From Nannobrachium achirus (lineage: Eukaryota > Chordata > Actinopteri > Myctophiformes > Myctophidae), in contig OY997652.1 of the NCBI GenBank assembly GCA_963921795.1, forward strand, positions 64,478,029 through 64,542,028: a stretch of 64,000 nt of DNA. The letters run 5' to 3'. Positions 6,997 to 55,965 of this stretch are shown one piece after another. Both the position numbers and the translations under genes were made by a program. The notes beneath the pieces were generated by a model. It was not told the DNA's origin, searched no databases, and saw only the letters and a program-made list of their open reading frames with translations. Each line of letters begins with the position of its first letter. Position 1 is the stretch's first letter.

Positions 6997-7579
6997 TTAA
7001 AACCCATTCAGAACGGGTACACAGTATTGTGTATCATTATTTTATGCTTTAACTATTGAAACATAGCAGATATGCAAGCTCACAGCGAGCTTGTAGATCT
7101 GCTATTTTTGAAAAATCATGAAAATTGGAATTGTTATAAGTGTCTTTTGAATCCTTCTAAGGTTTTTTTTTTAAAAACGTATGTTTCTATGTCAGCAATC
7201 TGGCCAGCCATCGTCAAAGAAAAGGTCCTTTTCACTTAACTGGAGCTCAGTTAGTCTGTTCTTGAGAGACTACTATGTCAGTGGTTCTCAAACCTTTTCA
7301 TGTGAAGGACCCCCAAAATGATATGTATTCGGCCACGGACCCCCATCTCAAAATATTTAGTTCCAGGGACCACCCCCAGAAGCAAAATTTGAGTTACCGG
7401 TACAAACGTTCGCTTTAAAAATACATATATTCAAAGATGTACACACATTTTCACGACTTTTTCAAAAATAGCAGATCTACAAGCTCGCAGCGCGGCTCTA
7501 GGTGCCGCGCTGTGAGCTTGTATATCTGCTATTTTTCACTGGTTAAAGCATTCAATAATTCTAGGCCTAAATGGGTTAA
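6997..7579. mobile_element. Twin-hairpin MITE, TTAA-flanked form
   Basis: TTAA occurs at both ends (6997-7000, 7576-7579) next to inverted termini related to TTAACCCATTTAGGCC. Hairpins lie at 7064-7104 and 7469-7531, both with the TAGCAGAT...ATCTGCTA stem. The middle carries a MER5/Charlie-like stretch (GTGGTTCTCAAACC, GGACCCCCATCTCAAAATAT). It begins only 39 bp after the fibcd1 splice donor. Confidence 0.75.
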
Positions 7580-8349
7580 GAGTTTCTGTTTTGTTATTTT
7601 CTTTCCCTAAAAAAAGTTTGTTCTTTTTAAAACATATTTTAGTTTCCGCAATGTGTTTGCACTGTGTCGAACTGTGTCGGCTTGAGAATCCACCAATTAT
7701 CTACATATCTGTTTAAAAGAAGATTTACTTGGGTGCAGTGAGTGCAGGGACGTGCAGAGCATGTTAGAGAGGCAGGGGCTGGAATTTCCAAAAGCTCACA
7801 ACGCGTCGCGCTGCGACGCGTTGTGAGCTTGGAGGTCGGCTATTTTCGGTGTGTGAAACCACACTGAACTAAGCATAACCAAGTCAATACTTGAGATGTT
7901 GTGTAATGGTATGGATTTCTACACAGAGAGGGCAATTCTTTCAACATAAGATGCTGCATTCAAGTTCAGGAGAGTTTGGACAAGGCAATTATCTTGAATG
8001 CTGCCTTCAGGTATGGCATGGAAAGAGGGCATTTGCATTTCTTTCGCCATAGTAAAAACTGCATTCATGGTCTGGAGAGGGCACTTTTTACAGATGGATA
8101 AAATGGCAGGGGCTCAAGCCCCCTTTGATGTCTATGTGTGCACGTGCCTGAGTGAGTGGTTCTCAAAGTGTTTTTTTTAGGGACCCTCAGCGTTCCCTGA
8201 AGGGGGTTCCAAATGGCCCGCCCGTGCAGGTCTGTACAAATGGAGGTCTGTACGAATGGAACCACTGTACAAATGGAACCAAATGGACCCAAGATTTGTA
8301 CACTCTCAGAGTTGAAAATTCAAAAGTTACCTGGTCAAGTGCTATATAG
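7580..8349. other. Repeat-derived spacer with a solitary hairpin
   Basis: No gene is seen. A perfect GC-rich hairpin occupies 7793-7842 (GCTCACAACGCGTCGCG and its complement) and ends GGTCGGCTATTTT, so it is a variant of the window-wide hairpin family. At 8155-8290 there is a decayed repeat with AGTGGTTCTCAAAGTG and imperfect repeats of TACAAATGGA/TACGAATGGA. Confidence 0.5.
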
Positions 8350-9370
8350 TCCATGGGCCATACGAGATGTCGGTATCCGAAAGGTGGCAAAAGTTGCCAT
8401 GGATTTTTGAAAAGCTCTATATCTGTAGATTATATTTTGGTATGATAACCCTTTCTGAGACACAGCTATTGGTGTTATCAGCCGCTAGAGTTAACATTAA
8501 CTTAAAGGACAACTTAGTTTTTTTACAACAAGGGTTCACATTTTAGATTGTAATTAGAGAAAAGAAAAAGTGAGTGTTAAAATGTTTTCATTTGCTTCGT
8601 TCTACTGTTTTATCGTGTTTACCGTGTTAAAATGTAGGGCATGCGTACGCATGGGGGCATGCGTACAAGTGGCTAAATATATGTCTTTTTAGACACAATA
8701 AGTCACATCCAACCATGAAAGGTTGCGTTGTATCTTGGGAATGGGCTTATTCTGTGTAAAATGACATGTTTAGCCACTTGTACGCATGCCCCCAACCACT
8801 GACATAAGAATATCTAAAACAATAGAAAGCAGTAAATTAAATAATTTTAACACTCATCTTTTATATTTTTTAATTACAATCTGAACCCTTGTTGTAAAAA
8901 ACTAAAGTTGTCCTTTAATATACAGGGGAAAACAAGCAAAACAAATGTTCATGATTCTGAATCCATTTCAAGCATCACAAAAAACTTTCCTTGGGCTAAA
9001 AACGGCCCCACAACAATATGGTTTAGTGATGAAAAGTGATGAGTCATCACGTTTCACACTTTTGTGGGGTCCGTTTTAGACCAATGAATGTTTTTCTGTG
9101 CAAAACAGATGCTTGCAATGGATTCAGAATCATGAAAAATCCCTAGTTTGACACCTCATATGCTACTTAAAGCAGATTATTTTTTAGCTTTTTTTCCCCC
9201 CTGTAGATTAAGTTAATGGGACACCAACTCTAGCGGCTGATAACACCAATTTAGCTGTGTCTCAGAAAGAGTTATCATGCCAAAATATAATCTACAGATA
9301 TAGAGCTTTTCAAAAATGCATGGTAACCTTTGCCACCTTTCGGATACCGACATCTCGTATGGCCCATGGA
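8350..9370. repeat. Foldback element, about 1 kb
   Basis: CCATGGGCCATACGAGATGT at 8351 recurs as its reverse complement ending near 9369. Arms of about 150 bp continue through CCACCTTTCGGATACCGACA and AGCCGCTAGAGTT. A second, inner inverted repeat pairs 8510-8690 with 8762-8919 (GCATGCGTACAAGTGGCTAA and complement). The right arm is interrupted at about 8925-9195 by sequence that includes the CATGATTCTGAATCC palindrome also seen at 629-841. Shared internal text (TATGCTACTTAAAGCAGATT) links it to the large foldback at 170-4078. Confidence 0.75.
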
Positions 9371-9653
9371 ATAATCGGAGCGCATGTCACATGCGCTTTT
9401 CAAATAAACAAATAAAACAAATGATTTGATTATTTGAAAAGGATTGCCATCAGCTATAGTCTTATCGGGGTGCATACAGACATATTACAAAACACATTAA
9501 AAAAAGAAAACTACAACATTACATTACATTAATTCACCTTAGTTATCAACATCAATATGAAACAGATTCAATTGACATTACAGTTCATATGAATATAAAA
9601 TAGAGTTAAGTAAAACAGCTGGTCCGGGTCCTGCCCATCCTGTCTTTCTGTTA
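9371..9653. other. No feature recognised
   Basis: AT-rich sequence with a short internal ACATTACATT repetition. No exon, RNA gene or clear repeat end was seen. Confidence 0.4.
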
Positions 9654-9662
9654 CCTGGTGTC

Positions 9663-10267
9663 TAGTCTTGCATAGCCAGACAACTATTCCTCAATCTCCG
9701 AATGCTGTATCCACAACTTTCCAACATCCCATCGTGCATTGTGCAGAAGTTGCACGGAGCTTCCGGTGTCGCAGCCGAGTGTGATCTACAAGCTCACAAC
9801 GGTTGCATATGCGACGCGACGTGAGCTTGTATGTCTGCTGTTAACCGGAAGTGTGGTGCAAAACATTCTCCAGTAAATTCCTGCGGAAAGAGGTGGATAG
9901 AGTCTGGAACGGCAACTCCTGAACGGCGAGTATCGGAAGTAGCCACTGCTGCACTGAACTGTAGTCCCATTGGAAACATAACAGAAGCACACTCGCACAG
10001 ACAGAGTCATTCGAGCGGCATATTCTGGGTGTATAGTTTAGACAACATTTGAAAACATCATGGAAGTATCACCAACAACACCAGAGAAAGACGAAATAAC
10101 ACCCCCAAACATATTGAAAGGAGACATAACGCTTCCAGTAGGACTTGTTATTGCTACTGCACCAAGGTAGCGGTTGCGTCACATCCACTTTATCTCGCAC
10201 TCATCGTTTCTATTTCCGTGCCCCAGACTGCAAATCGCGTAGGCAACAGTCTGGCCACGCGAGACTA
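9663..10267. mobile_element. TIR element with 9-bp TSD
   Basis: Termini TAGTCTTGCATAGCCAGAC and GTCTGGCCACGCGAGACTA are inverted repeats. They are flanked by a perfect 9-bp duplication CCTGGTGTC at 9654-9662 and 10268-10276. Nine-base TSDs are typical of Mutator-like elements, but that is only a suggestion. Inside lie a hairpin of the TCTACAAGC family (9783-9839) and a short ATG frame from 10060 (MEVSPTTPEKDEITPPNIL...) that closes at AAGGTAGCGG, which also resembles a splice donor. That frame may be a remnant first exon of a transposase or chance. Confidence 0.75.
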
Positions 10268-10276
10268 CCTGGTGTC

Positions 10277-11772: not shown

Positions 11773-13395
11773 TAATAGAGGCCTTTCTGGGCCCGCCCCT
11801 TTCCCCCCTCCCCCTGAGCGGCAGCCATGATGGAGTCACTGCTGCAGCAGTGTGTGTCTATGTCTATGTCTATGGAGATGGGACTTTTAATGAAATTAGT
11901 CATTACCAGTCCCATCTCCATGATATTTAGATCTAATTCCTTCGCCAGTTCCATCCGCATGATTTGTAGATCTAATTCTATGAGTCCCATCCCCATGATT
12001 TGTAGGTCTAATTCCATCGCCAGTCACATCCTTATGATTTGTAGATCTAATTCTATCTGTTCCATCTCAATTATGTTTAGGTCTAATTCCATCGCCAGTT
12101 CTATCCGCATGATTTGTTGATCTAATTTTATCAGATCCATCCCAATGATTTTTAGATCTAATTTCACCACCAGTTCTATCCTTATGATTTGTAGATCTAA
12201 TTCCATCAGTCCCATCTCAATTATGTGTAGGTCTAATTCCATCGCCAGTTCCATCCACATGATTTGTAGATCTAATTCTATACAGTTCCATCCTCATGAT
12301 TTGTAGATCTAAATCCATCGCCAGTCCCATCCTTATGATTTGTAGATCTAATTCTATCAGTCCCATCCCCATCATCTGTAGGTCTAATTCCATCACCAGT
12401 TCCATCTGCATGATTTGTAGATCTAATTCTATGAATCCCATCCCCATGATTTGTTGGTCTAATTCCATCGCCAGTCCCATCCTTATGATTTGTAGATCTA
12501 ATTCCGTCACCAGTCCCATCCCTATCATTTGTATGTCTAATTCTATTGCTAGTTCCATCCACATGATTTGTAGATCTAATTCATGTGCCGAATCTGAAGC
12601 CGGTGGGACGAACGTTTCTTGAGATAAGTGGATTACATACATACATACTCACAGAGATTTGTCACATTTATTGTAAGCAGATGAATTATGTGGATGGGAC
12701 TGTATCGAATTAGACCTACAAATCATGGGGATGGAATTGGCGATGGAATTAGATCTAAACATAATTGAGATGTGACTGATAGAATTAGATCTACAAATCA
12801 TGCGGATGAAACTGGCGATAGAATTGGACCTACACATCATGGGGATGGGACTGGTGATGGAATTAGATCTACAAATCATGACGATGGAACTATATAGAAT
12901 TAGATCTACAAATCATGCGGATAGAACTGGCGATGGAATTAGACCTAAACATAATTGAGATGGAACAGATAGAATTAGATCTACAAATCATAAGGATGGG
13001 ACTGGCGATGGAATTAGACCTACAAATCATGGAGATGGGACTCATAGAATTAGATTTACAAATCATTTGGATGGAACTGGCGATGGAATTAGACCTAAAC
13101 ATAATTGAGATGGAACAGATAGAATTAGATCTACGAATCATAATGATGGGACTGGCGATGGTATTAGACCTACAAATCATGGGGATGGGACGCATATAAT
13201 TAGATCTACAAATCATGCGGATGGAACTGGCGAAGGAATTAGATCTAAATATCATGGAGATGGGACTGGTAATGACTAATTTCATTAAAAGTCCCATCTC
13301 CATAGACATAGACACACACTGCTGCAGCAGTGACTCCATCATGGCTGCCGCTCAGGGGGAGGGGGGAAAGGGGCGGGCCCAGATAGGCCTCTATT
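11773..13395. repeat. 1.6 kb palindrome of mirrored minisatellites
   Basis: The outer arms start AATAGAGGCCT and end AGGCCTCTATT. They continue through matching CGGCAGCCATGATGGAGTCA and its complement. Each arm then holds a run of 36- and 39-bp units around GATTTGTAGATCTAATTC followed by CATC(GCC)AGTCCCATCC, forward at about 11905-12590 and reverse complemented at about 12690-13275. The unpaired centre is about 12590-12690. Long ORFs here are translations of the units (ICRSNSI..., or MELDLQI... on the other strand) in a sequence open in several frames, and I do not regard them as genes. Confidence 0.85.
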
Positions 13396-13491
13396 GCCAA
13401 GTGTTAATTCATCCATTTTGTTTCTTTGTAACTCAGAGATGGTGCAAACGTGCATCTCTCCACACATCTCTCCAAGGGAGGTGTGTGGAAC

Positions 13492-14030
13492 CAGGGGCGT
13501 CACAAGGGGGGGGGGGGGGGGGGGGGAGTGGGACTGAGTTACTAGGGCCCAAGGTGGAGGGGCCTTAATTATGTTATACTTAAGCTATTGAAAAATAGCA
13601 GATATACAAGCTCACAGCGCTGCAAGCTGCAGCTTGTATATCTGCTATTTTTGAAAGGTTGTGAAAATGTGTGCAAATCTTTGAATATATGTAAATTTTG
13701 CTTCTGGGGGTCCCTGGAACTAAATATTTTGAGATGGGGGTCCGTGGCCAAATACATATCATTTTGGGAGTCCTTGACATGAAAAAATTTGAAGCACCAC
13801 TGACATAGAAATATAGTTTTTTTTTTTCTCCAAAAAAACTTTAGAAGGATCTGAAATATTCAAAGACTTTTTCAAAAAGATTTTTCAAAAAATAGCAGAT
13901 CTACAAGCTCGCAAGCGCGGCACTCGGTGCCGCGCTGTGAGCTTGTCTATCTGCTATTTTTCATTAGTTAAAGCACACAATGTGACTGTATCCTTGTACC
14001 CAGAGCCCAGAATTTGGTGCGACACCCATG
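13492..14030. mobile_element. Twin-hairpin MITE, CAGGGGCGTCAC form, with 8-bp TSD
   Basis: Starts CAGGGGCGTCACAAGG with a poly-G run (13507-13526) and ends GGTGCGACACCCATG. The flanks TGTGGAAC (13484-13491) and TGTGTAAC (14031-14038) match at 7 of 8 bases. Hairpins lie at 13596-13647 and 13893-13956. The CAG-type ends and 8-bp TSD point to hAT transposition. Confidence 0.82.
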
Positions 14031-14391
14031 TGTGTAACTTTGGAACTTTTTAATAAAAGATTCTAGACAGTATAACTTTAAGTAGGATCAAATCAACAAA
14101 TCGTGGATATTAGTCGGGTCCTTCTCAGTGTTATATATTTATTTTCCAAGGGGCGGTTACAAAAAGATTCAAACTCTATCGGTTAGACCTACAACCAATC
14201 AGAGTGGCTCAAAGGTGACACGCCCACCCAACATTTGCATACTGGACCCCTGGTTGGTTCTTCACAGCTTGTTAGGTGTGAAATATTTGAATAACTGAGC
14301 GGGGCCAGACCTAATCTGCCACGGGCAATTTTTCGTTGCAACAGCATATTTGTTTGGCTACGCGAGGCTAGAACAAATATAGCACTAATTA

Positions 14392-14634
14392 TATCGTCAT
14401 TGTCGGGTGGAAACCTTGTATGTTAAACTGTTTGTTTTGTATTTATCATTTTAAAAAATGAGTTAAACTAGTGATAACAACCGATCTACAAGCACCGCGA
14501 GGCGTTGTGTGCTTGTAGATCTGCTGTTTTCACTACTTTTGTGCGACGGCCTTGTGTGATGAAGCAGAGCTTTTCTTTGCGAAAAAATGTATACGGTATA
14601 AGGTGTATAAGGTTTCTGCCCCACAGTGACGATA
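14392..14634. mobile_element. TATCGTC-ended MITE with central hairpin
   Basis: Inverted ends TATCGTCATTGTCGGGTGG and CTGCCCCACAGTGACGATA are present. A central hairpin (about 14475-14525, CGATCTACAAGCACCGCG...) belongs to the same TCTACAAGC stem family as the twin-hairpin elements. Sister copies lie at 46958-47125 (partial), 47646-47789 (deleted interior), 51703-51965 (complete) and 62349-62465 (partial). Confidence 0.75.
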
Positions 14635-14988
14635 TGCAAGGACAACAGACCGTTTATGCCTACGCCTCCCAGTAATGTCATTGTCAGATTAGGACGTGAG
14701 ATGGACATGGCACATTACCTATAAGGTTGAAAAAAAAATGTATTCGGTGGGAAAGCTTGTCAACATCAGATGCCTTTTTTTCCTCGCGGTGTAATTTGCA
14801 TTCGTTTAGCATCTAATTGTGGATGTGACAATGATTTCCCCACTGGGCACACAACCTTTTGAAGAGTCTATAGCCGACGCGTACGCGAAAGCAATCTTTC
14901 CCGCTGATATTTGCGAGAGACCTCAAACTTTCAGCCGAGCCGTGCAGTATGTTCCGGTGGAGCTCGCGACGCGCACTCACCTCCCGAC

Positions 14989-15432
14989 CAGTGTTGATTT
15001 CGTCGACTAAAAACTATGACGAAAAATGATTGTCGACTGCGTTTTTTTTCACTGACGAAAACGAAATAAAAACTGAGCTGTGATGACTAAAACTAAGACT
15101 AAATATATTGACAATTTCGTCAACAAAATAAAAACTAGACTAAAAAGTTAGGGAGGGACTAGTGGAGAAGAGACTCATTTTATATTTGGTTGCTCTCAGG
15201 TGTTGCAGCACACAATCAAGTGTAAAATCAGTCATTCCGATGCCAAAATACATTTCAGTTGACTAAATCAACTGTAGATTTAGTCGCCTAAAATCTTATG
15301 ATATTTAGTCGACTACAATTAGACTAAAACTAATACTTTTCAGGTGACTAAATTATGACTAAAACTAAATGACATTTTATTAAAAGACTATGACTAAAAC
15401 TAAATCAAAACTTCTTGTCAAAAACAGCACTG
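14989..15432. mobile_element. hAT-type MITE with perfect 8-bp TSD
   Basis: Starts CAGTGTTGATTTCGTCGACT and ends CAAAAACAGCACTG. It is flanked by CTCCCGAC at 14981-14988 and 15433-15440. The interior repeats the motif GACTAAAACTAA. A second, reversed copy ends at 23279 and differs by carrying a hairpin insertion. Confidence 0.9.
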
Positions 15433-15682: not shown

Positions 15683-16125
15683 TTAAGCCATTTAGATCGG
15701 GTACGCATTGTTGCGTGTTATTATTTTATTATGCTTTAATTATTGAAAAATAGCAGATATACAAGCTCACAGTGCGGCTGCAAGCATGTAAATCTGCAAT
15801 TTTTTAAAAATCGTGAAAATTTGAATTTTGATCCGATTCGATAAGTGTCTTTTGACTCCTTCTAAGGTTTAAAAAAACAAAAAAAAACGTGTTTCTATGT
15901 AATTGGTTCTCAAACTTTTTTCACGGGAAGGACCCCCAAAATGATATGTATTTGGCCAAGGACCCCCATCTCAAAATACTTAGCTCCAGGGACCCCCCAG
16001 AAGCAAAATTTCGATTTACTAACGTTCGCTTACAGCTCACAGCGCGGCACCGAGTGCCGCGCTGCGAGCTTGTAGATCTGCTATTTTTCAATAGTTAAAG
16101 CCTTCAACAGGCCTAAATGCCTTAA
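15683..16125. mobile_element. Twin-hairpin MITE, TTAA-flanked form
   Basis: TTAA occurs at 15683-15686 and 16122-16125, with ends AAGCCATTTAGATCGGG and GGCCTAAATGCC. The left hairpin (15751-15798) is decayed. The right hairpin (16033-16083) has lost its outer left stem but keeps a perfect GC-rich inner stem. Confidence 0.7.
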
Positions 16126-17646: not shown

Positions 17647-18173
17647 CATGGGTGTCAAACCAATTTCTGGGCCCTGGGTACAAGGATTCACTCACATTTT
17701 GTGCTTTAACTATTGAAAAATAGCAGATCTACAAGCTCACAGCGCGGCACTGCGAGCTTGTAGGTCTGCTATTTTTGATAAATCGTGAACATTTGCGCAA
17801 GTCTTTGAAGGTTTCAAATCCTTCTAAGGTTTTTTTGAAACAACTGTTTCTGTGTCAGTGGTGCTCAAACCATTTCATGTCAAGGACCCCCACAAGGATA
17901 TGTATTTGGCCCACGGACCCCCATCGCAAAATAATTAGTTCCAGGGAGCCCCCAGAAGCAAAATTGGAGTTACAAATGTTCGCTTAAAAAATACATATAT
18001 TCAAAGATTTTTGCACACATTTTCACTACGTTTCAAAAATAGCAGATTTACAAGCTCGCTGTGAGCTTGTATATCTGCTATTTTTTCAATAGTTAAAGTA
18101 TAAAATAATGAAGGCCCCTCCACCTTGGGCCCAATAACTCAGTCCCACTTTTCCCTCCCTTGTGACGCCCCTG
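17647..18173. mobile_element. Twin-hairpin MITE, CAGGGG form, with 8-bp TSD
   Basis: Starts CATGGGTGTCAAACC and ends TTGTGACGCCCCTG. The flanks CTTGCACC (17639-17646) and CTTGCAAC (18174-18181) match at 7 of 8. Hairpins lie at 17721-17771 and 18040-18080. The centre holds the usual CTCAAACC...GGACCCCCATC stretch. Confidence 0.82.
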
Positions 18174-22969: not shown

Positions 22970-23279
22970 CCTTGATGGCATCATAATGACTGATTTTACA
23001 CTTGGTTGTGTGCTGAAAATAGCAGATCTACAAGCTCACGACGCGTTGTGAACTTTTAGATCGGCTAGTGTCAGCACACAACACCTGAGAGCAACCAAAC
23101 ATAAAATGACTCTCTTCTCCACTAGTCCCGTTTTAGTATATAGTTTTTATTTTGCTGACAAAATTGTCAATATATTTAGTCTAAGTTTTAGTCATGACAG
23201 CTTAGTTTTATATAGTTTTCGTCAGTGAAAAGAACGCAGTCGACAAAAAAAACATTTTTAGTCGACTAAATCAACACTG
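22970..23279 (-). mobile_element. Reverse hAT-type MITE copy carrying a hairpin insertion
   Basis: This is the reverse of the element at 14989-15432. It ends TAGTCGACTAAATCAACACTG at 23279 and contains CAACACCTGAGAGCAACCA matching 15185-15205 in reverse. The hairpin 23020-23067 splits TGTGTGCTG from AACACCTGAG, which are nearly contiguous in the other copy. Its 3' end lies 55 bp before the terminal fibcd1 exon. Confidence 0.8.
23020..23067. repeat. Hairpin-family unit inserted in a hAT copy
   Basis: TAGCAGATCTACAAGCTCAC with a weakly decayed complementary arm (GTTGTGAACTTTTAGATCGGCTA). The host text on the left, GTGTGCTG, reappears inverted on the right as CAGCACAC, so the palindrome extends into the flank. 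Confidence 0.8.
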
Positions 23280-23763: not shown

Positions 23764-24302
23764 CATTAGATGCTTTAACTTAAAAAAAATAGCAGATATA
23801 CAAGCTCGCTGCGAGTTTGTAGATCTGCTATTTTTTGGAAAAGGTCGTGAAAATGAGTGCAAATCTTTGAATATGTGTTTTAAAAGCGATTGTTTGTAAC
23901 TCAGATGTTGCTTCTGGGTGGTCCCTGGAACTAGATGTTTTGAGATGGGGGTCCGTGGCCAAATAAATGTCATTTTGGGGATCCTTCATGTCAAAAAGGT
24001 TTGAGAACCACTGACATGGTAGTCTCTCAAGAACAGACTAACTGAGCGCCAGTTAAGTGAAAGGGACCTTTTTCTTTGACGATGGCTAAGCCAGATTGCT
24101 GACACAGAAACAAGTTTTTCAAAAAACCTTAGAAGGATTCAAAAGACACTTACAGAATTTTCACGATTTTTCCAAAATAGCAGATCTACAAGCTCGCAGG
24201 GCGGCACTCGGTGCCACGCTGTGAGCTTGTATATCTGCTATTTTTCAATAGTTACAGCATAAAATGATGATACACAATAATGTGTCCCCCTAAATGGGTT
24301 AA
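23764..24302. mobile_element. Twin-hairpin MITE following fibcd1
   Basis: Hairpins lie at 23790-23830 and 24178-24240. The right end CCCTAAATGGGTTAA is intact and the left end is truncated in the fibcd1 3' region. In the middle part a base change turns the usual AAATACAT into AAATAAAT, giving AATAAA at 23962-23967, a candidate but unproven polyadenylation signal for fibcd1. Confidence 0.7.
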
Positions 24303-35237: not shown

Positions 35238-36593
35238 AGTTACTAGGGCCCAAGGTGGAGGAGGGGCCTTAAAGGAGCTATAGTCTAGCCTGACACTCAG
35301 CCTGAATTGACATTTAGTTTCACTCCATTATTCAGTCTTAAATTGCTTCCAACTGCAGCAGTTTCTGGAATGGGCGTTGCCAAAGAGGCAGTCTTCTGCG
35401 ATTGGTTCACCGTCTGACCAACACAACAGTAGCAAAGCAGATGACATAGTGTTGTTATGTGTGGCTGGCTAGTGCTACTTGCTAACCAAAGAAACACCAG
35501 GAATAGGAGCACAACGAATTAGTAATCAAACACAACATAACATGTCTGCTACTGATGTTTCATAGATGTTTCTAGATACTGATTTATTTCATAGCATTTT
35601 ACCGCATTTTACCGCGACACGATGTGTGCGGTCCCGTCCGGCGGCGGCGAATTGCACAGGAGTTCTGGGAAAACCCCACCCACGCTGATCACAAGACGTT
35701 GATTCACTACGCTGATTCGCCGTACGGATTTCCAAACAAGGAAAACCTCTTCAATGAGAGCAACACCAGACTCCCTGAATCGCCAAAACAACATTTTAAA
35801 GGGGTGTGGCTAGCGATTCAGGGTCTGAACCAAGGACGCTAAAATAAAAAATTATGTTGAAAATATTTTATAAAAAAGATTAAGCTTCGTATGTGTTTCA
35901 ATTAAAAAATGACCACAAAAAGCGTAAAATAATGATAAAATAATCATTTTGGCCATTGTCAGACTGACTTTGTTTACATCCCTCTTCTATTCTTTTAAAT
36001 GGGTCGATAAGGGATGTGGCCAAAATGATTATTTCATCATTATTTTATGCTCTTTGTGGTTTCAATAGAAACTCATACATGTATATGAAGCTTAATCTTT
36101 TTTTATAAAATATTTTCTAAACATTATTTTTAAATTTTAGTGTCCGTTTTTCAAGAAAATGTTTAGCTATTGAAGAATAGCACATATACAAGCTCACAGC
36201 GCGGCACTGAGTGCCCGCTGCGAGCTTGTAGATCTGCTATTTTTGAAAAGTTGTGAAAATGTGTGCAAATCTTGGCTTCTGGGTCCCTGGAACTAAATAT
36301 TTTGAGATCGGGGTCCGTGGCCAAATACATATAATTTTGGGGGTCCTCCACATGAAAAGGTTTGAGCACCGCTGACATAGAAACATACGTTTTTCAAAAA
36401 AACATTGAAATATTCAAAGACTTGCACAATGTTCATGTTTTTTTTTGTTTTTTTTAAAGAAGATTTACAAGCTCGCAGCACGGCACTCGGTGCTGCGCTG
36501 TGAGCTTGTATATCTGCTATTTTTCAATTGTTAAAGCACAAAATGTGAGTGAATCCTTGTACCCAGGGGCCAGAATTTGTTGCGACACCCCTG
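35238..36593. mobile_element. Twin-hairpin MITE split by a nested TTAA MITE
   Basis: The left fragment (AGTTACTAGGGCCCAAGG, 35239-35268) and the right part (hairpins 36178-36239 and about 36459-36519, end GTTGCGACACCCCTG) belong to one element. The nested MITE at 35269 to about 36163 starts TTAAAGGAGCTATAGTC. Its sibling is at 43709-43960. Confidence 0.7.
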
Positions 36594-38465: not shown

Positions 38466-38625
38466 CAGGGTTTCTCAAAGTGGGTTAGTCCAGAGGTGCC
38501 TCAGATTACTTTGATAATATATGCATCAAAATCACTTCAGTTTAACCACTTAGACTCTCTTGGTAAAACAGACCTGATTTGCACTGTACTTGAGTTATTT
38601 TTTCCTTCTACCTCAACTCTCTTCA

Positions 38626-38662
38626 CAGATCTACAAGCTCTTGTAAGCTTGCAGATCGGCTA
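38626..38662. repeat. Solitary hairpin-family unit
   Basis: CAGATCTACAAGCTC faces its complement GTAAGCTTGCAGATCGGCTA. It is followed by CCCCCAGAATAGGGATGCTG, text that also follows a degraded hairpin remnant near 11620-11665, so it is part of a different host repeat from the twin-hairpin MITE. Confidence 0.65.
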
Positions 38663-39004
38663 TCTTTGGTGAACCTTCCCCCAGAATAGGGATGCTGGGG
38701 GTTCAAGTGGTTAACCCATTTAGGCCTAACCTATAGAATAGGGCTAAATCAGAAATTAGCCTACAAAACAAATATGTTGCTACATACTGTACATGTACTG
38801 TAAGCCCCTCCCAAACAGCAAAATGTGTTCCCGGCCTGAATCGTCAACTATAAAAATCTGTTCTAATGGAAACACATATGTCTCTGTGACATATCATATC
38901 TCAGGTGAAGAGATGCATATTACGCAGTGTAATATACATGAAAGGTGTAATAAAAAAATAAAAAAATCATAGACATGTACCAATTAAAACTGTTCTATGT
39001 CACT

Positions 39005-40626: not shown

Positions 40627-41208
40627 CAGGGGCGTCACAAGGGGGGGGGGGGGGGGGGGGGGGGGGTGACTAGGGCCCAAGGTGGAGGGGCCTTCATTAT
40701 TTTATACTTTAGCTATCGAAAAATAGCAGATATACAAGCATGAGCTTGTAGATCTGCTATTTTCGAAAAGTCGTGAAGATGTGTGCAAATCCTTGAAAAT
40801 GTGTATTTTTTAAGTGAACATTTGTAACTCAAATATTGCTTCTGGGGGTTCCCGGAACTAAATATTTTGAGATGGGGGTCCATGGCCAAATACATATCAT
40901 GTTGGGGGTCCTTGAGCACCACTGACATAGAAACATAGGTTTTTCAAAAAACCTTAGAAGGATTTGAAATATCAAAGATGTGCACAAATGTTCACGATTA
41001 TTTTTAAAATAGCAGATCTATAAGCTCGCAGTGCGGCACTCGGTGCCGCACTGTGAGCTTGTATATCTGCTTTTTTCAATAGTTAAAGCACAAAATAATA
41101 CGTTCCCAGTCTAAATGGGTTAAACCTCCTCCCCCTATGAAGAACATTCGTGGGGGGCCCGCAGTGAATCCTTGTACCCAGGGCCCAGAATGTGGTGCGA
41201 CACCCCTG
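40627..41208. mobile_element. Twin-hairpin MITE, CAGGGG form, perfect 8-bp TSD
   Basis: Starts CAGGGGCGTCACAAGG plus 26 G and ends GGTGCGACACCCCTG. It is flanked by GTGCTGCA at 40619-40626 and 41209-41216. Hairpins lie at 40724-40759 and 41010-41071. The TSD sequence is part of the minisatellite unit that follows. Confidence 0.9.
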
Positions 41209-42499
41209 GTGCTGCAGACAGTCACACTGCACTCACCACATATAGGCTCTAATGCAGCCTGGTGCTGCAGACAGTCACACTGCACTCACCACATATAGGC
41301 TCTAATGCAGCCTGGTGCTGCAGACAGTCACACTGCACTCACCACTTATAGGCTCTAATGCAGCCTGGTGCTGCAGACAGACAGTCACACTGCACTCACC
41401 ACATATAGGCTCTAATGCAGCCTGGTGCTGCAGACAGTCACACTGCACTCACCACATATAGGCTCTAATGCAGCCTGGTGCTGCAGACAGTCACACTGCA
41501 CTCACCACATATAGGCTCTAATGCAGCCTGGTGGTGCAGACAGTCACACTGCACTCACCACATATAGGCTCTAATGCAGCCTGGTGCTGCAGACAGTCAC
41601 ACTGCACTCACCACATATAGGCTCTAATGCAGCCTGGTGCTGCAGACAGTCACACTGCACTCACCACATATAGGCTCTAATGCAGCCTGGTGCTGCAGAC
41701 AGTCACACTGCACGCACCACATATAGGCTCTAATGCAGCCTGGTGCTGCAGACAGTCACACTGCACTCACCACATATAGGCTCTAATGCAGCCTGGTGCT
41801 GCAGACAGTCACACTGCACTCACCACATATAGGCTCTAATGCAGCCTGGTGCTGCAGACAGTCACACTGCACTCACCACATATAGGCTCTAATGCAGCCT
41901 GGTGCTGCAGACAGTCACACTGCACTCACCACATATAGGCTCTAATGCAGCCTGGTGCTGCAGACAGTCACACTGCACTCACCACATATAGGCTCTAATG
42001 CAGCCTGGTGCTGCAGACAGTCACACTGCACGCACCACATATAGGCTCTAATGCAGCCTGGTGCTGCAGACAGTCACACTGCACGCACCACATATAGGCT
42101 CTAATGCAGCCTGGTGCTGCAGACAGTCACACTGCACGCACCACATATAGGCTCTAATGCAGCCTGGTGCTGCAGACAGTCACACTGCACTCACCACATA
42201 TAGGCTCTAATGCAGCCTGGTGCTGCAGACAGTCACACTGCACTCACCACATATAGGCTCTAATGCAGCCTGGTGCTGCAGACAGACAGTCACACTGCAC
42301 TCACCACATATAGGCTCTAATGCAACCTGGTGCTGCAGACAGACAGTCACACTGCACTCACCACATATAGGCTCTAATGCAGCCTGGTGCTGCAGACAGA
42401 CAGTCACACTGCACTCACCACATATAGGCTCTAATGCAGCCTGGTGCTGCAGACAGACAGTCACACTGCACTCACCACATATAGGCTCTAATGCAGCCT
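41208..42499 (+). repeat. 24-unit minisatellite, 53/57 bp
   Basis: Units GGTGCTGCAGACAGTCACAC...CTCTAATGCAGCCT. Nineteen units are 53 bp and five are 57 bp (extra ACAG), at 41367 and in the last four positions. Sequence identity between units is very high; the few variants are TCACC/GCACC, CACTTATA and GGTGGTGCAG. Confidence 0.95.
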
Positions 42500-42785
42500 G
42501 ACAGCGAGTCGCAGATTCGATTTACCGGGCCTGACGACCTTTGCTGAGTGTCACTCCCCTCTCCCCCTGTTTCAGGTCTATCTCAACTGTACTATCCAAA
42601 ATAAAGGTAGAAAAGCCCCCCAAAAAGACCGGACCCACTGAGCACTAGTCTAAAATGTGTCTAAAAGTGAAAGTTTTTTAGACGTCTAAGCTTAGATTAG
42701 ACGTGGATTAGTTGTTATTTCAACAGCTATATAGAAGGGACATCTATTAGACGCTATTTTAACGGCTATAGATGGTACTAGTAAG
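42500..42785. other. No feature recognised
   Basis: Contains imperfect repeats of TAGACG (about 42680-42790). No gene. Confidence 0.4.
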
Positions 42786-47194: not shown

Positions 47195-47957
47195 CAGTGG
47201 TGGAATAAGTACTCAAATGTTATACTTAAGTGAAAGTATCAATAATACATGCAGTATAGAAATACTCTGTTGCAAGTAAAAGTCTGAAATTCTAAATTGA
47301 GTAAAAGTACAAAAGCATTGGCATCAAAATGTACTTAAAGTACCAAAAGTAAAAGTACTCATTATGAATGTCCCAAATGAAAATAGCTGATCTACAAGCT
47401 TACAATGCCTTGTAGATCTGCTATTTTCAAATGGTCAAAATGTTATTGGGTTGAAGTGTAATAAGAATCGCAATCTACAAAGTAACTAGTAACCCAAGTT
47501 TTCATAAGCATGTAGTGAAGTAAAAGTACAATACTTGGATCCAAGATGTAGTGGAGTTGAAGTAAAATCAGCCCGGGAAAAAGAGTTGGAGAGGCCCTCA
47601 TTGCGCGCTATAGCTCTATAGCGCTGCTGCTACTGAGTTATATTTTGTCGTTGTCGGGTGGAAACCTTGTATGTCCAAAACCGTTTGTTTTGTATTTATC
47701 ATTTTGAAAATGATTTAAACTAGTGAAAACAGCCGAATGTACAAATTTGAAACTTGGAGATACAAGGTTTCTGCCCGACAGTGACGATTTACTTTGTTGG
47801 CCGCCGAGCCTCCAAAATGGAACAAAGGCAGACAATTTATTTATTTTATTTTTTTTCTAATGGCCGGCCGTTCGGGAGTTGTCCCGCTTTTCCCAATGGC
47901 CAGCACGTCCCTTACTACAGTACTTAAGTTAATGTACTTAGTGACTTTCCACCACTG
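47195..47957. mobile_element. hAT-type element with 8-bp TSD, containing nested repeats
   Basis: Ends CAGTGGTGGAATAAGTACTC and TGACTTTCCACCACTG. Flanks CCTAATCC (47187-47194) and CCTAACCC (47958-47965) match at 7 of 8. Nested inside are a hairpin (47384-47423) and, from about 47570 to 47930, a separate repeat that includes a shortened TATCGTC MITE (47646-47789). Confidence 0.85.
47384..47423. repeat. Solitary hairpin-family unit in a hAT element
   Basis: TAGCTGATCTACAAGCTTAC and its complement GCCTTGTAGATCTGCTA, bracketed by AATGAAAA and TTTTCAAA. A fourth host background for the hairpin. Confidence 0.8.
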
Positions 47958-48890: not shown

Positions 48891-49262
48891 TTAAAGGGAT
48901 AGTTCACTCCCTCCATGGAGACTCAAATTCATGGATATACATTTTTGTCACAATCCTAAGCCAATAATTTGATGACCCGCAGTTTCCTAGGGAGAGACAA
49001 AGAGGCTATTTGTTCCCTATGGAGACACAAAGAGTCTCCTCAAATTATAGGAATGTGGAAAAAAATAAGAAAATCCTATTATACTTTGACAAACTGGGTC
49101 TCTCTCTATACCATTACTTGGTCCACTCCTTTTCTTTTCCTACATAACATCTCTTTGTCGAACTTAGCAGATCTACAAGCACACAGCATGACACTTCATG
49201 TTGTGCTTGTAGATCTGCTATTCCCAGCAAATATTCCCCTGTGAAGACATGCCCAAAATTGG
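48891..49262. mobile_element. Diverged TTAA MITE of the AGTTCAC family, with hairpin
   Basis: Starts TTAAAGGGATAGTTCACTCC. A hairpin-family unit with ACAAGCACACAGC arms occupies 49165-49220. GACATGCCCAAAATTGGGAA after it resembles the flank following 33676. The right end is not clear. Confidence 0.5.
49165..49220. repeat. Solitary hairpin-family unit
   Basis: TAGCAGATCTACAAGCACAC and its complement GTTGTGCTTGTAGATCTGCTA. The inner stem differs completely from the GCGCGGCAC type. Confidence 0.85.
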
Positions 49263-50097: not shown

Positions 50098-50202
50098 TAA
50101 CGCAGTTTAATGCTGCCTATTAGGTAAGGATATGGTGCATTTATTCGCCTCTCAAAACAAATGTTACAAGGCGCTGCAGGAAAAATGACTGAGTTGGAGG
50201 TG

Positions 50203-50495: not shown

Positions 50496-50738
50496 CTGAC
50501 TTTGTCACCTTCGGCTGAGCGGTTTTGTTTTGTGCCTTTTGTGTGTCTAACTTGAGTTTTTTTTTTGGCAAAGGTTTGGTTGGTATGGAGAGGAACAGTT
50601 GGTTTTATGGTGATGTGTGCTTTCCTTTCCCCGTCCTCCACAGGAGAGTCGTAATATCAAACTGGAAGTGTCAGGAGGAGAACCCACACAGGGTTTTTAT
50701 TATGCCCTTGTATCATACTCTACACTGCCGCTTGTGCC

Positions 50739-51336
50739 CAGGGGTGTCACATCACCAAATTCTGGGCCCTGGGACTCACTCTGGGGCCCCCCATGAATGG
50801 GAACGCATTATTATGCCTTATTTTGTGCTTTAACCATTGAAAAAATAGCAGATCTACAAGCTCACAGCGCGGCACCGAGTGCCGCGCTGCGAGCTTGTAG
50901 ATCTGCTATTTTTGAAAAATCTTGAAGATTTGTGCACGATTCTGGAAATGTCTTCTAAATCCTTCTACGTTTTTTTTTTTTTTTTTTTTTTTTTTTAACT
51001 ATGTTCCTATGTCAGTTGTGCTCAAACCTTTTCATGTGAAGGACCCCCAAAATGATATGTATTTGGCCACGGACCCCCATCTCAAAATATTTAGTTCCAG
51101 GGACCCCCAGAAGCAAAATTTTAGTTTAGTGTTTTTTGCTTAAAAAAAAATGCACACATTTTCACATCTTTTCAAAAAATAGCAGATCTACAAGCTCGCA
51201 GCGCGGCACTCGGTGCCGCGCTGTGAGCTTGTATATCTGCTATTTTTCAATAGCTAAAGTATAAAATAATAAAGGCCCCCTCCACCTTGGGCCCTAGTAA
51301 CTCAGTCCCACTTTCCCCCCCAGTGTGACGCCCCTG
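50739..51336. mobile_element. Reference full-length twin-hairpin MITE, perfect 8-bp TSD
   Basis: 598 bp, starting CAGGGGTGTCAC and ending GTGTGACGCCCCTG, flanked by CTTGTGCC at 50731-50738 and 51337-51344. The two hairpins at 50846-50908 and 51180-51242 are each 63 bp with about 30-bp stems and at most a few mismatches. The middle carries CTCAAACCTTTTCATGTG and GGACCCCCATCTCAAAAT. No ORF is present. This is the best-preserved copy and a good family reference. Confidence 0.93.
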
Positions 51337-51344
51337 CTTGTGCC

Positions 51345-51702
51345 ACTCCACACACACTGGCACCTTTATTAGCATAATAATCCACAGAGAGATCCAGACA
51401 TGGGTGAGGAAATGCTGAGGCAATTGTCAGTTTATCTTTTTTTTTCTTTTCTCGCCTCTCCCCTCAACCGTCCTTCTGACAGACTCATCATTTTCTTTAT
51501 GAATCAGAATCGTGACGGCAATGACCCGTCTGTTTTATTTATTTTATTTGACTTTTACTGGCTCAATTTACATCCACTGAAGCCACTTCTACGGTTTTGA
51601 GTTTTCAGGTTTCGATTTGTTTTTTACTCGTGTGAAAGGTGTCTTTCCATGGCGAGTAAGGAAGTAATCAAAGCTATAGATTATGCAACAGCTTGTATAG
51701 AA
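51345..51702. other. No gene recognised
   Basis: T-rich sequence with no exon, RNA gene or repeat end. Confidence 0.35.
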
Positions 51703-51965
51703 TATCGTCGTTGTCTAGTGGAAACCTTGTATGTCCAAAACCGTTTGTTTTGTATTTATCATTTTTAAAATGATTTAAACTAGTGAAAACAGCCGATCTA
51801 CAAGCACACAACGCCTCGCACCGCGAGGCGTTGTGTGTTTGTAGATCAGCTGTTTTCACTACTTTTGTGCGACGGCTTTGTTTGATGAAGCAGGGCTTTA
51901 CTTTGCGAAAAAAATTACAAATTTGAAACTTGGAGATATGAGGTTTCTGCCCGATAGTGACGATA
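51703..51965. mobile_element. Complete TATCGTC-ended MITE with central hairpin
   Basis: Inverted ends TATCGTCGTTGTCTAGTGG and CTGCCCGATAGTGACGATA. The central hairpin spans about 51782-51860 with a long stem including GTGAAAACAGC, GATCTACAAGCACACAACGC and complements. Best copy of this family in the window. Confidence 0.85.
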
Positions 51966-52065
51966 TACAAGTGGATAATTGGATCCATTGAAAGCTTGTT
52001 AAAGTTAGAGTTAGATTCACCATTTCACTGTGTTGCTCCCTCTTTCCCATCACTTTTTATACTGT

Positions 52066-52113
52066 CCTGCTACATCTCTTTTTTTGTTGGATATAATACA
52101 TCCAACAAAAAAA
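52066..52113. repeat. Short perfect palindrome
   Basis: CTTTTTTTGTTGGATATAAT faces ACATCCAACAAAAAAAG, an AT-rich cruciform candidate. Confidence 0.7.
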
Positions 52114-52230
52114 GTGAACATAATATTATTATGTTCATGGCGAATTCCAGATCAGCAATGAAACATTTACAACAGTTTATTTTACAGTGCAGTATAGTAG
52201 ATCGTTAACCTTTTATTCTTAAACTTTTTT

Positions 52231-52772
52231 AAGTAAGGGATAACGGATAACGACTGGCTCCTTGGTGGTTCTCCATAAATAACAACCCGACAGCCTGATG
52301 GCTGAAGGGATTGTTATTTATGAAGAACCACCAAGGAGCCAGTCGTTATCCCGCTTATTACCCGGCTACTAAATAAAATTAATAATTTGACTCAAAACTA
52401 AAAACAATACAAAGCATTTCCTTGTTTACAGACAGCTGAAAGTATTCCAAAAGTGTTGCGCAAAACGGTCACCTTGGAAAACAAGGAAGTGCTGATTAGA
52501 TAGAATCCATTTTCTGATACCACGTCATCTATTTCTCGCTTACAATATTTTTAAAAACATTCTTGAGAGCAACGTTTAGTTCTAAATGTCGCTGTGTGTT
52601 TGTTTACATGGCTGACATGTTGGATACAGCACAAGATTCACGCAGTGCAGCCTGACTCAGGTGTTCTGAGCCTTTGATTAGGCAGTGGTCTGTTATCAAG
52701 GAATATCAGACTTCTGATTTCAGCGATTGACCAATCAGAATCAAGCATTCAAACAAGCCGGGTGATAAAACC
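52231..52772. mobile_element. DNA element with central palindrome, copy 2
   Basis: Same order as 39005-39625: TAAGTAAGGGATAACGGATA, a palindrome around GACTGGCTCCTTGGTGGTTC, then GCTTATTACCCGGCTACTAA, TTGACTCAAAACTAAAAACA and CAAGCCGGGTGATAA. The palindrome core differs between copies. Confidence 0.7.
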
Positions 52773-53003
52773 ATATCAAGTTTAAATGGTTTAAACTAAG
52801 CCCTATATACTATGTTGACCACGGACTGTCAGGGGTCTGTGCTTGGTCCTCTCTCTTTTTTTCCCTCTACACCAGCATCTCTTTGCCAAAAATGGACAAC
52901 CTATAAGTGCACAGCGTGTGAGCTGTTAGATGTGCAACATTGTTGTTTTTGTAGGCTAATTTTTGAATAATATTGTTTTTCAGAAAAGTTAGGTCAGGCC
53001 TAT

Positions 53004-53509
53004 TTAAAGCTATATTGTGTAAGTTGCTAAACTAGTGGTCAGTAGCGGTATTGCTTTTTTCGTCCGTTTTTCGCCCGGTGTCGCTGCGGACCACCGGAGC
53101 AGGGCCGCAAACCACCGCGACCGATACGAATCCGTAGAGGGGTAGAACGTTTTTTCTGACCAGGATTTGGGGAGTAAGAGGCAAGAATCCTTCACCACCG
53201 TAAACACTAGTTGCTGAGGGAGGCTACTTCCTGAAGAGATGGCAAGATACGCTGTGATTGGCCGGTAGTGTGTCATGTGTGTGTATGATCCGCGATGTGA
53301 TTGGCCAACGTATACACAACGTATACAGATGATGCAGATGACGTAATTTTGCTGCGAAATCTGGTCCCCGGCCAGGATCATAGAAAACATATTTACAGAA
53401 GGCTTTAGGGGCTGAAATTAAGAGTGGGTGTTCTAAAACTTTAGCGATTTAATAGTTAGGACAACTTTAAGATTTGTTTTATAAAAAAAGTTATATAGTA
53501 TAACTTTAA
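53004..53509. mobile_element. TTAA-flanked MITE (TTAAAGCTATATTGTGTAAG)
   Basis: Ends TTAAAGCTATATTGTGTAAG and GTTATATAGTATAACTTTAA are inverted repeats. A 126-codon minus-strand ORF lies inside, but it has no domain and its frame spans repeat termini, so I do not call it a gene. Confidence 0.65.
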
Positions 53510-53639
53510 CTAAGTACTTTAAGAGAGTCAAACCCAAATAGTATGGATTAGTCCAGATGAGAGTCACAGAAGTATATGGGTAACAGTTTGTTTAGGTCTT
53601 ATGAGATGAAAACCTCTGTAACGGCTCTTCACAACACTG

Positions 53640-53830
53640 CAGACTTGTTAGTGTGCCCTAACAGGGCAGCACACTATAGTACTTGTCTGACTTTATTATA
53701 GTCAAGTGTGACCAAAGGTTTGGAGTGCTACTCCTCCCACAGTTTTCGCGCCACACCTGCGCCATACAGTATGTCAAATTGACCGGCTTCATAGGGACTT
53801 GTGTGCTCTACATTTCTGTAGAGAAATGTT
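53640..53830. repeat. Diverged element with GTGTGCCCTAACAGGGC start
   Basis: TTAGTGTGCCCTAACAGGGCAGCACACTATAG has the same plan (inner stem, then CACTATAGT/CACTATGTT) as the start of the element at 57298. Class unknown. Confidence 0.4.
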
Positions 53831-53994
53831 ATATAGTTTAATTTATATTAATTTATTAGTGAATTCATTTTCCCCATTGACTTATATATCCATTGAGCTA
53901 TCCATCTGGAGTTTGTGCAACCCACAACTCGTTAAAAACATAACTTTTCCCATATATAGAGACGACTGAAATCATATATGTCTGACAACATAGA

Positions 53995-55330
53995 CCACAT
54001 GAGACAGACACAATATGTCCATATATGGGCATACCGAGTTATGGCTTAATATTGAGGACATCATGGATCTCTATATATGGGCATAAAAGGGACAAGGACG
54101 GAATTAGCACCACTCGGATTTCCAATTGCAACTTTCTAGTATGAATTCAATTAGGTTTCTAAGAATAACCACACTGACCAGATTTGAAGACAGGGGTTTT
54201 GCTAGTAGCGACAGAGCCAGAAATGATTACTTCCAGGGGTGTCACACCAAATTCTGGGCCCTGGTACAAGGATTCACTGCGGGCCCCCCATGAATGTTAA
54301 CTATTGACAAATAGTACCAGTAAGACTCCCTAATCGGGAGATAAGCGACCGTTGGTCGCTTATCTCCACAAATAGGCCAAAAGTTTGTTTTACCAATTAT
54401 CAAGACATACGGGCAGTTGACAGTTTGCCATGGTTACTCATTGAAGTTGAATCTCCATATATGGAGACATAAGTTGCTCATACCATAGCAACCATGTTTT
54501 TTACAGGGCCTGGGATTGATGACATCAGAAATCTCCATATATGGGCATGAAAGGGATTTTGTTTCTGGAAATATGTCTGTGGGGTGCCACATTTGGAATA
54601 AAACACTTACATCACACATCTGGATATCCATACAGCCCATCTAGTTTGCCTGTGTCCATTTATGCCCATATATCTGATGACATTGGGACACTGATCTCCA
54701 TATATGGGCATAAAACTTATGTTAATTAGTAAAGCCTGGGGATCTCCATATATGGGCATGAGGGGTACCCTAAAAGGGCATCATCTGGGAATAGCAAATA
54801 TAGTTATCCTAGAAAGTGAAAATCTTACATCAAAGGCCATAACTACCTACCTACCACCATACTGCATTCCTCATTAAACTACCTACCAGTAAGATGCCTA
54901 TAGGGAGAAAAGCAAAGGGCGAGGTTGCACCATTTCTTGGTCTTCTGGCCAGTGATGTATATCGGACCATTTAACCATATATGGAGACATCTGGTACCCA
55001 AAGATATTCACAGATATGGGCTTAATATTGATGACATAAGGGATCTCCATATATGGGCGTAAAAGGGATTTGGTTCCCCTGGCATCACAGGGATCTCCAT
55101 ATATGGGCATAAAATGGATTTGGTTACCCTGGCAACACGGGGATCTCCATATCTCCATATATGGGCATAAAAGGGATTTGGTTCCCCTGGCATCACAGGG
55201 ATCTCCATATATGGGCATAAAAGGGATTTGGTTCCCCTGACATTACAGTGATGTCAGTGGCTGGTTCTACAGAGGGGATCTCCATTTATGGGCATAAAAG
55301 GGAATGTATGTATGATGATGTCAGATATCA
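53995..55330. repeat. CCATATATGG-bearing repeat, cluster 2
   Basis: The exact decamer CCATATATGG occurs at 54019, 54455, 54535, 54698, 54746, 54975, 55047, 55097, 55155 and 55205. At 55037-55250 it is part of a 50-58-bp tandem unit GGGATCTCCATATATGGGCATAAAA...TTTGGTT(C/A)CCCTGGCA. An end fragment of a CAGGGG MITE (54236-54310) and a 46-bp palindrome (GAGATAAGCGACCGTTGGTCGCTTATCTC, split near 54350) lie within. Confidence 0.8.
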
Positions 55331-55555
55331 TAGACGTCATAGGACTTTCACATAACGAATAACTGAGTAAGCATGTAAACCCGTAAAATCTATATTTGGG
55401 CATGGCTGATTTATGACCTCATCATGATGACACGAGCAAACACAGCTGAATTGTATAAATGATCAGTGCAGAAACCAACAGAAGTATTTGACCAAGACTC
55501 TTCGATTTAAACATCAACAAAGGTGTGACGTTTTTTTGATGGTCACAAAGGTTTG

Positions 55556-55601
55556 ACGGACGGACGGACGGACGGACGGACGGACGGACGGACGGACGGC
55601 C
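55556..55601 (+). repeat. (CGGA)n microsatellite
   Basis: Eleven tandem CGGA units. Confidence 0.95.
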
Positions 55602-55654
55602 GGTGGAGGTTTTCATAGTAAACTGCTCCCTGACGGTCGCAAATACTAATATTT

Positions 55655-55965
55655 TTGAATTTTTTTGAAAATGTGTGCAAGTTTCCATGTCAGTGGTGCT
55701 CAAACGTTTTCATGTGAAGGAACCCCACAATTATTTGGCCACGGAACCCCATGTCAAAATGTTTAGTTCCAGGGACCCCCCCCCCCCCCCCAGAAGATTT
55801 GCACACATTTTCACGACTATTCAAAAATAGCAGATCTACAAGCACGCTGCGAGCTTTTAGATCTGCTATTTTTCAATAGCTAAAGTTACTAGGGCCCCTC
55901 CACCTTGGGCCCTAGTAACTCAGTCCCCCCCCCCCCCCCCCCACCCCCCCCTTGTGACGCCCCTG
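55655..55965. mobile_element. Truncated twin-hairpin MITE, CAGGGG form
   Basis: The left hairpin is lost. The middle CTCAAACGTTTTCATGTG and TTTAGTTCCAGGGACC remain, with a right hairpin at 55828-55868, a duplicated CCTCCACCTTGGGCCCTAG, a poly-C run and the end CTTGTGACGCCCCTG. Confidence 0.75.

Follow-up and report, generated by a model that had tools for sequence, protein, structure and literature searches.

A hairpin repeated throughout the genome of Nannobrachium achirus is probably the conserved centre of an old clan of TTAA-inserting miniature transposable elements

Introduction

A 64-kb stretch of the 1.66-Gb genome of the myctophid fish Nannobrachium achirus (assembly GCA_963921795.1, contig OY997652.1, positions 64,478,029 to 64,542,028; hereafter the window) is rich in short palindromes that have in common a 16-base outer stem, TAGCAGATCTACAAGC, and differ in their inner stems. 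An earlier note on this stretch proposed that the palindrome is a separate mobile unit. Here we argue, at a probability of roughly 0.7, that the palindrome is instead the conserved centre of an old and highly diversified clan of palindromic miniature inverted-repeat transposable elements (MITEs) that insert at TTAA, and not a free-standing hairpin. Most likely, part of the clan is carried by composites of the hAT type that have 8-base duplications, and the hairpins are the best-preserved middles of the elements. Judged from their sequences, the arms of what look like different hosts would have diverged from one element, which is supported for the families that we label A, D, D', E and I and likely for family C.

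Abundance and folding of the hairpin

In the window, the stem has 68 matches with up to three mismatches, compared with a mean of 0.51 and a maximum of 4 in 100 shuffles. When up to four mismatches per arm are allowed, 29 hairpins are paired and 11 stems stand unpaired, and the count of about 38 hairpins given in the earlier note is borne out by these 40 sites. A second, slightly different pairing rule gives 30 paired hairpins. Genome-wide, 258,253 forward and 257,776 reverse matches (516,029 in all) were found with at most one mismatch, while the reversed stem pattern, used as a control, gave only 1 + 2. In 20 arbitrarily placed stretches of 10 kb each (183,211 bases readable, 42.6% GC) there are 35 paired hairpins, or ~190 per Mb, which extrapolates over the genome to roughly 0.3 million hairpins. 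The window is richer than these stretches, with 45 stem matches at up to one mismatch in 64 kb compared with 50 in 200 kb (183 kb readable).

Folding six window hairpins as single-stranded DNA showed that five of them fold far better than shuffles: z lies between -9.0 and -14.7 for those at 50846, 51790, 7469 and 47384, and is -6.8 for the one at 7793. The sixth, at 9783, is weak (z -1.7, with 11 of 200 shuffles equally good). Something hairpin-like is present at all 14 positions that had been given as examples, and several of them needed correction: the hairpin at 7793-7842 has lost its 5' outer arm, the one placed at 38626 starts at 38623, and the one placed at 51782-51860 has its core at 51790-51852. 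Scans of the window with Rfam (gathering threshold) and for tRNA gave no match. An 18-base stem had 4 matches in viral contigs, which we attribute to chance, as no mirrored second arm was seen in the stretches inspected.

Host families and their inner stems

Flanks were compared in a sample of 122 hairpins drawn from the window, from 8 loci that the stem had located, from the 20 arbitrary stretches and from 60 loci of contig C1. The C1 loci were found with a non-A stem pattern in the first 3 Mb of that contig and are biased towards intact stems. We distinguish 78 types of flank, which agrees with the different host backgrounds described earlier. The two flanks of a hairpin mostly form fixed pairs: types 0-1 occur together 17 times, 2-3 13 times, 0-4 10 times, 0-12, 8-9 and 10-11 6 times each, 13-14 5 times, 7-16 4 times and 5-6 3 times, with a few rarer pairs. 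One flank is of a type seen once in 25 hairpins, and both flanks are in 14. From these types we label family A (0, 1, 4, 12), D (2, 3), B (8, 9), J (10, 11), I (13, 14), H (7, 16) and C (5, 6 and relatives).

Had the palindrome moved on its own, its inner stem should not be correlated with the host, as was predicted in the earlier note. The opposite was found. Among the 45 full-length hairpins of the 74 that could be assigned to a host, inner stem identity is 0.897 within hosts and 0.709 between them, a difference reached in none of 1000 label shuffles. The variable inner stems noticed earlier comprise both family-specific full stems and stems shortened by deletion. In families A and H, it is deletion within the centre that has made some inner stems shorter. 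The gap between the flanks of family A is 36-66 bases in 5,153 copies and 0-30 bases in 163, and ~95 of the 100 short-centre copies listed retain hairpin pieces, cut at many points (by eye). Of the 34 short-centre H copies, all of which were listed, 28 retain stem pieces and 6 have none (by eye).

These observations bear on the idea that a separate mobile palindrome of ~61-91 bases was inserted repeatedly into transposons of unrelated kinds, which afterwards amplified together with their copies of it. It would account for the 28 host settings that have no common flank types, for the several hAT-type end pairs with 8-base duplications that carry the hairpin, and for the lack of a recurrent TTAACC boundary in families B, H and J. 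Yet the inner stems follow the hosts, the short A and H copies mostly retain pieces of the hairpin, several hosts have arms with homology to a single TTAA arm (see below), and the edge of the palindrome has no consistent target duplication. No direct repeat recurs at this edge, with totals within ~1.4 standard deviations of the null; two weak signals appear, each at a single position, namely a 3-base repeat at distance 9 (3 of 28) and a 4-base repeat at distance 17 (2 of 28). Nor was a clean insertion of the hairpin alone at a hairpin-free homologous site found among the short copies of A and H or in the edge-duplication scan. Only a 186-base element at 9711-9896 has empty sites, in loci L001 and L011, and this element is larger than its hairpin. 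We consider a separate mobile palindrome quite unlikely. The same lack of a consistent target duplication led us to reject the idea that the shoulders next to the hairpin are the tips of a mini-element.

TTAA ends and homology of the arms

That the hairpin belongs to TTAA-inserting elements came from the ends of families A and D/D', in both of which TTAA at the two ends is combined with short terminal inverted repeats. The stand-alone ends of family A read CCCATT[TC]AG; in 14 of 27 copies sampled, TTAA stands immediately before this end, and many of the others are one or two changes off. In the whole genome, the A end pattern has 1,316 matches with TTAA and 2,110 when TTAA is left out of the pattern, a ratio that is not exact because the TTAA-less pattern has two extra bases at the opposite end. 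On contig C1, 37 of the 70 places listed for the TTAA-less pattern recur in the TTAA pattern (hand count). A complete A element of 600 bases, bounded by TTAA on both sides, lies in locus L001. The D/D' unit, TTAACCACTTGAACCC..GGTTCAAGTGGTTAA, encloses the hairpin and measures 173-209 bases in four copies aligned end to end; A elements measure 581-600 bases. Inverted ends flanked by TTAA surround 6 of the 122 hairpins (5 D, 1 D') and 4 of 564 controls. A matching transposase would be expected to share the end motif CCCATT[TC]AG or CCACTTGAACC.

The TTAA-type elements of the window are as follows (no strand is assigned to the elements listed in this text unless one is given).

6999..7579, 581-base family A element; hairpins 7064-7104 and 7469-7531, near its two ends, are thus both ends of one element; sides TTAAAACCCATTCAG (TTAAAA) on the left and CCTAAATGGGTTAA on the right; arm types 1,0 and 0,1
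15683..16125, family A element with TTAA-like ends TTAAGCCATTTAG .. CTAAATGCCTTAA; hairpin 15751-15799 and a one-sided hairpin ending at 16083
38542..38714, 173-base TTAA unit of family D', TTAACCACTT..AAGTGGTTAA; shortened central hairpin 38623-38662

The pattern TTAACC at 5-35 bases outside the stem has 2,086 + 2,053 matches, a count whose control is uninformative on chance TTAACC and in which 23 of the listed places are an inner motif, TTAACCAGTGAAAAAT, and not an end. Among the listed places, arms of the A, C, D, D', E and I types align with a single arm that reads roughly TTAACCACTTTARCCCTATTTTATAC..TTGGCTATTTGAAAAT. Comparison of 12 arms with the anchors excluded (11 picked by hand among 100 listed TTAACC places, and one A arm) gave 15 of 66 pairs scoring above all 400 mononucleotide shuffles. 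The pairs link I, A, F, G, M and a C-like arm and, separately, D, D' and E; the score of D to the A1 arm was equalled by 1 of 400 shuffles. BLAST had left several of these arms unjoined, although their homology reaches a TTAA boundary. Such homology suggests that a good part of the apparent diversity of hosts is the divergence of one ancestral element. The earlier note had allowed for this outcome, in which every hairpin lies within one ancestral element and decay or nesting explains the rest; it largely describes A, D, D', E and I, probably describes C as well, and may not extend to B, H, J and the family of the 7793 hairpin.

hAT-type ends around the hairpin

Several hairpins lie between inverted ends flanked by 8-base duplications, which we take to be features of the hAT type. 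Exact 8-base duplications with inverted ends enclose 4 of 76 hairpins, all within two window elements of two hairpins each, and none occurred in three rounds of mismatched controls.

40627..41208, internal segment of family A with hAT-type ends CAGGGGYGTC; 8-base duplication GTGCTGCA; hairpins 40724-40759 and 41010-41072
50739..51336, internal segment of family A with hAT-type ends CAGGGGYGTCACA; 8-base duplication CTTGTGCC; hairpins 50846-50908 and 51180-51242

With a looser scan, 16 of 122 hairpins, in 13 separate elements (one of them, L052, doubtful), have such ends, compared with 6 of 334 mismatched controls. The duplication is exact in three D copies (L041, L042, L092) with CAGGGGTCTTCA-like ends and in a J copy (L088, TAGGGCTGTCAC); a C copy, L025, has nine matching bases and CAGTGGTTCTCA ends, and L035 has, by eye, CAGGGGTTTTCAAA ends and the duplication CGCTAGAC. 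Composites of the hAT type are found with exact duplications in A, D and J, with one mismatch in the duplication in I, and with nine bases in C. Duplications of 5, 6 and 9 bases are also above controls, partly as the same elements shifted, and lengths of 2, 3, 4 and 7 bases gave many matches and many control matches too. The 8-base duplications and the CAGxGG- or TAGGGCTG-type ends are shared with non-autonomous hAT elements, but the hairpin also sits in TTAA-ended elements, and to our knowledge a hairpin of this sort is no known feature of hAT elements.

Pairing and decay of the hairpin

Compared across families, the palindrome has changed less than the sequence around it, in line with the conserved outer stem of the earlier note. 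Fourteen ungapped full-length representatives, two of which are A copies, have in common a strongly conserved block, GATCTACAAGCTCACAACG; their arms vary, and positions -5 to -10 contain several pair types. Outside the stem, the 28 hosts without a common flank type pair above reshuffled hosts (p < 0.05 per position) at positions 1, 6, 7, 9, 10, 11 and 13; beyond position 15, only 20 and 36 pass among 25 positions. The possibility that every host is one long palindrome was rejected: a first test put pairing below its control, which was a poor one because the arms of inverted A copies are homologous, and a second, with one copy per host, showed pairing to about position 13-15.

Within family A the pairing decays. 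Among 45 A sequences we counted 73 one-sided and 6 double changes; four of the six, all compensatory, come from L076, a D copy assigned to A by mistake, which also contributes to the 73 one-sided changes. When L076 is excluded, one double change is compensatory and one is not. Shoulder pairing is thus kept between families and lost within A, and since one-sided changes dominate, it seems a property of family founders rather than of repair in each copy; ongoing arm-to-arm repair after insertion was not seen within A. The mismatch rates in A are 3.0% in the hairpin, 3.8% in the inner arm and 4.7% in the outer arm, as compared without a significance test in 40 copies chosen by hand, mostly for full length. 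As the A hairpin decays much like its flanks, what is conserved would be the version carried by each founder.

It is conceivable that the palindrome is a recombination pivot, a hot spot of template switching around which arms and transposon ends are exchanged while the centre stays fixed. One A inner arm is joined to three outer arm types (1, 4 and 12), the A centre occurs with both TTAA and hAT-type ends, and the shoulders pair using host-specific letters. Two single copies, judged by eye, have arms of two families: the hairpin of L070 is of C type with an E-type arm, and that of L006 combines a D left arm with a D' left arm. The most frequent families, however, have one fixed arm pair, and A without L076 has no excess of paired double changes. 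A pivot seems to us rather improbable.

The hairpin could also be a cis signal of the transposition machinery, recognized by a protein or as a DNA structure and selected in every founder. Conservation of the block with variable arms, and pairing that is kept between families while changes within A are mostly one-sided, are what such a signal would leave; copies with a deleted centre exist nevertheless. As an account of the palindrome, this proposal is possible though somewhat doubtful, and it is compatible with the palindrome being the centre of a TTAA clan. A bolder version, which we think very unlikely, is that the core is a portable amplification signal that unrelated transposons (TTAA, hAT and B type) have converged on carrying. 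If so, an extruded hairpin recognized during replication or transposition would raise copy number whatever the transposase.

Search for a transposase

Transposase genes matching PF13843 exist in this genome: 116 of 952 candidates gave scored matches, many of them with long open frames. Sixteen PF13843 matches lie within ~0.5 Mb at C2:71346413-71843994, all listed on the + strand. Two families of piggyBac-type genes have a hairpin nearby, one a D'-like copy in an intron (by eye) and the other half a hairpin. As hairpins are common everywhere, we rejected the idea that the hairpin is a functional part of these genes.

Evidence against a TTAA clan

Several observations weigh against the hairpin being the centre of one TTAA clan. 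About 5 of the 100 listed short A copies and 6 of the 34 short H copies have no stem piece and can be read as empty. The hairpin at L026:7153-7214 has paired shoulders and a 156-base left flank with a single match in the genome, so this copy lies in no known repeat. A recurrent TTAACC boundary is absent from B, H, J and the 7793 family within 170 bases on each side, where TTAACC-type tips were sought. The K arm, one of the 12, is linked to no other, and the arm comparison, with its mononucleotide shuffles, started from hand-picked places matching the TTAACC pattern and so from a set biased towards TTAA ends. A search for an unfilled D site gave a single match, with two mismatches, and this is a different sequence. 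Finally, no TTAA-paired ends were found in the 601 bases on either side of two piggyBac-type genes.

How the clan could have arisen

The ancestral element would have consisted of TTAA, an arm of ~45 bases starting CCACTTTAGCCC.., a hairpin of 61 bases, the mirrored arm and TTAA again, and may have multiplied by ordinary cut-and-paste with a borrowed transposase. We argue that its arms and tips then diverged, giving many of the families that were taken for hosts, and that some copies probably became parts of hAT-type composites by nesting and were amplified with the hairpin inside. The centre could have outlasted the ends most plausibly because the hairpin helps an element to become a successful founder, for instance through folding or the binding of a factor.

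Other hairpins and repeats in the window

The remaining hairpin elements of the window are listed below.

13596..13956, family A; hairpins 13596-13647 and 13893-13956; arm types 4,0 and 0,12
17721..18080, family A; hairpins 17721-17771 and 18040-18080
23790..24240, family A; hairpins 23790-23830 and 24178-24240
36178..36519, family A; hairpins 36178-36239 and 36457-36519
51701..51964 (approximate, BLAST extent), family B element with ends like TATCGTC; central hairpin 51790-51852, in which the stem base is C.G instead of T.A
14391..14640 (BLAST extent), family B copy; hairpin 14478-14526
47226..47567 (BLAST extent), family I copy; hairpin 47384-47423 with shortened centre
23020..23067, family H hairpin
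15130..15290, minus strand, family H copy without the hairpin and without one shoulder
7793..7842, 7793-family hairpin that has lost its 5' outer arm
9711..9896, 186-base element with degraded hairpin 9779-9839 (placed at 9783-9839 in the earlier note, and present there, if weak); missing at the homologous sites L001:2926-2810 and L011:1738-1869
49165..49220, single hairpin with a distant D-like match

The window also contains tandem arrays. Those at 11906-12582 and 12707-13269 have 39/75-base units that contain TTGTAGATCTAATTC; they have TTGTAGATCT in common with the palindrome stem and are possibly derived from it. Two others are clean, one at 41205-42500 (53-base unit, 24 copies, 98% matches) and one at 57473-58328 (32-base unit, 25 copies, 96% matches).

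Relation to known elements

The closest description that we have found is that of the CMITEs of Acropora corals. In the main text of PMC2872659, these are TTAA-duplicating elements of ~100 bp and homogeneous size, with ~1,600 copies in A. millepora, and are divided by their terminal repeats into six families whose internal region is more conserved than the ends; they form tandem arrays, and a new element was made by the insertion of a CMITE. The clan resembles CMITEs in its TTAA, in an internal region that is more conserved between families than the terminal repeats, and in tandem arrays of units derived from the centre (PMC2872659). Two such arrays of the clan derive from the 5' arm of the hairpin, one in L141 (C1:3708100-3708650; about a dozen units of ~45 bases, TAGCAGATCTACAAGCTCACATCATGTCAGTGTGTGCACATAATC) and one at L005:599-739 (six 25-base units). 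The two differ in their tips, which are CC[C/T]T in CMITEs and CCCA (A) or CCAC (D, I) in the clan, and in size, ~100 bp compared with 173-209 (D/D') or 581-600 bases (A) (PMC2872659). The clan goes beyond CMITEs in its palindromic centre, its far higher copy number and its hAT-ended forms; a term search of the main text of PMC2872659 found no mention of a hairpin or palindrome, and the likeness is one of description.

According to PMC2872659, the terminal motif that adjoins TTAA in MITEs derived from piggyBac is CC[C/T]T, which the clan tips lack. Kolobok and the T2-MITE of Xenopus also target TTAA, but the terminal sequence of Kolobok is RR whereas clan tips start with CC (text of PMC6004289). 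As neither terminal motif is found, we do not file the clan under piggyBac or Kolobok. The clan is a CMITE-like group of TTAA MITEs, and we do not file it as CMITE. The Angel elements of teleosts are also hairpin-forming fish MITEs. Angel (Izsvak 1999) is cited among MITEs grouped as being of the same origin in PMC2872659. The repetitive hairpin-forming elements of mitochondria are likewise hairpins dispersed at many places, but they are organellar, while the hairpins of the clan lie inside nuclear transposons with recognizable ends (text of PMC2800124). Our literature search found no description of this hairpin in fish, which is weak evidence, since most subscription journals fall outside the search.

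Significance

If the hairpin is indeed the centre of a TTAA clan, N. achirus would provide a very large example, of roughly 0.3 million hairpins, of MITE families in which the centre and not the ends is conserved. It would also serve as a warning that one diversified clan with a common internal hairpin can be mistaken for a set of hosts that a mobile hairpin has entered. The reason for conservation of an internal region, a question left open for the coral CMITEs, would become testable with plentiful natural variants, among them copies with graded deletions of the centre.

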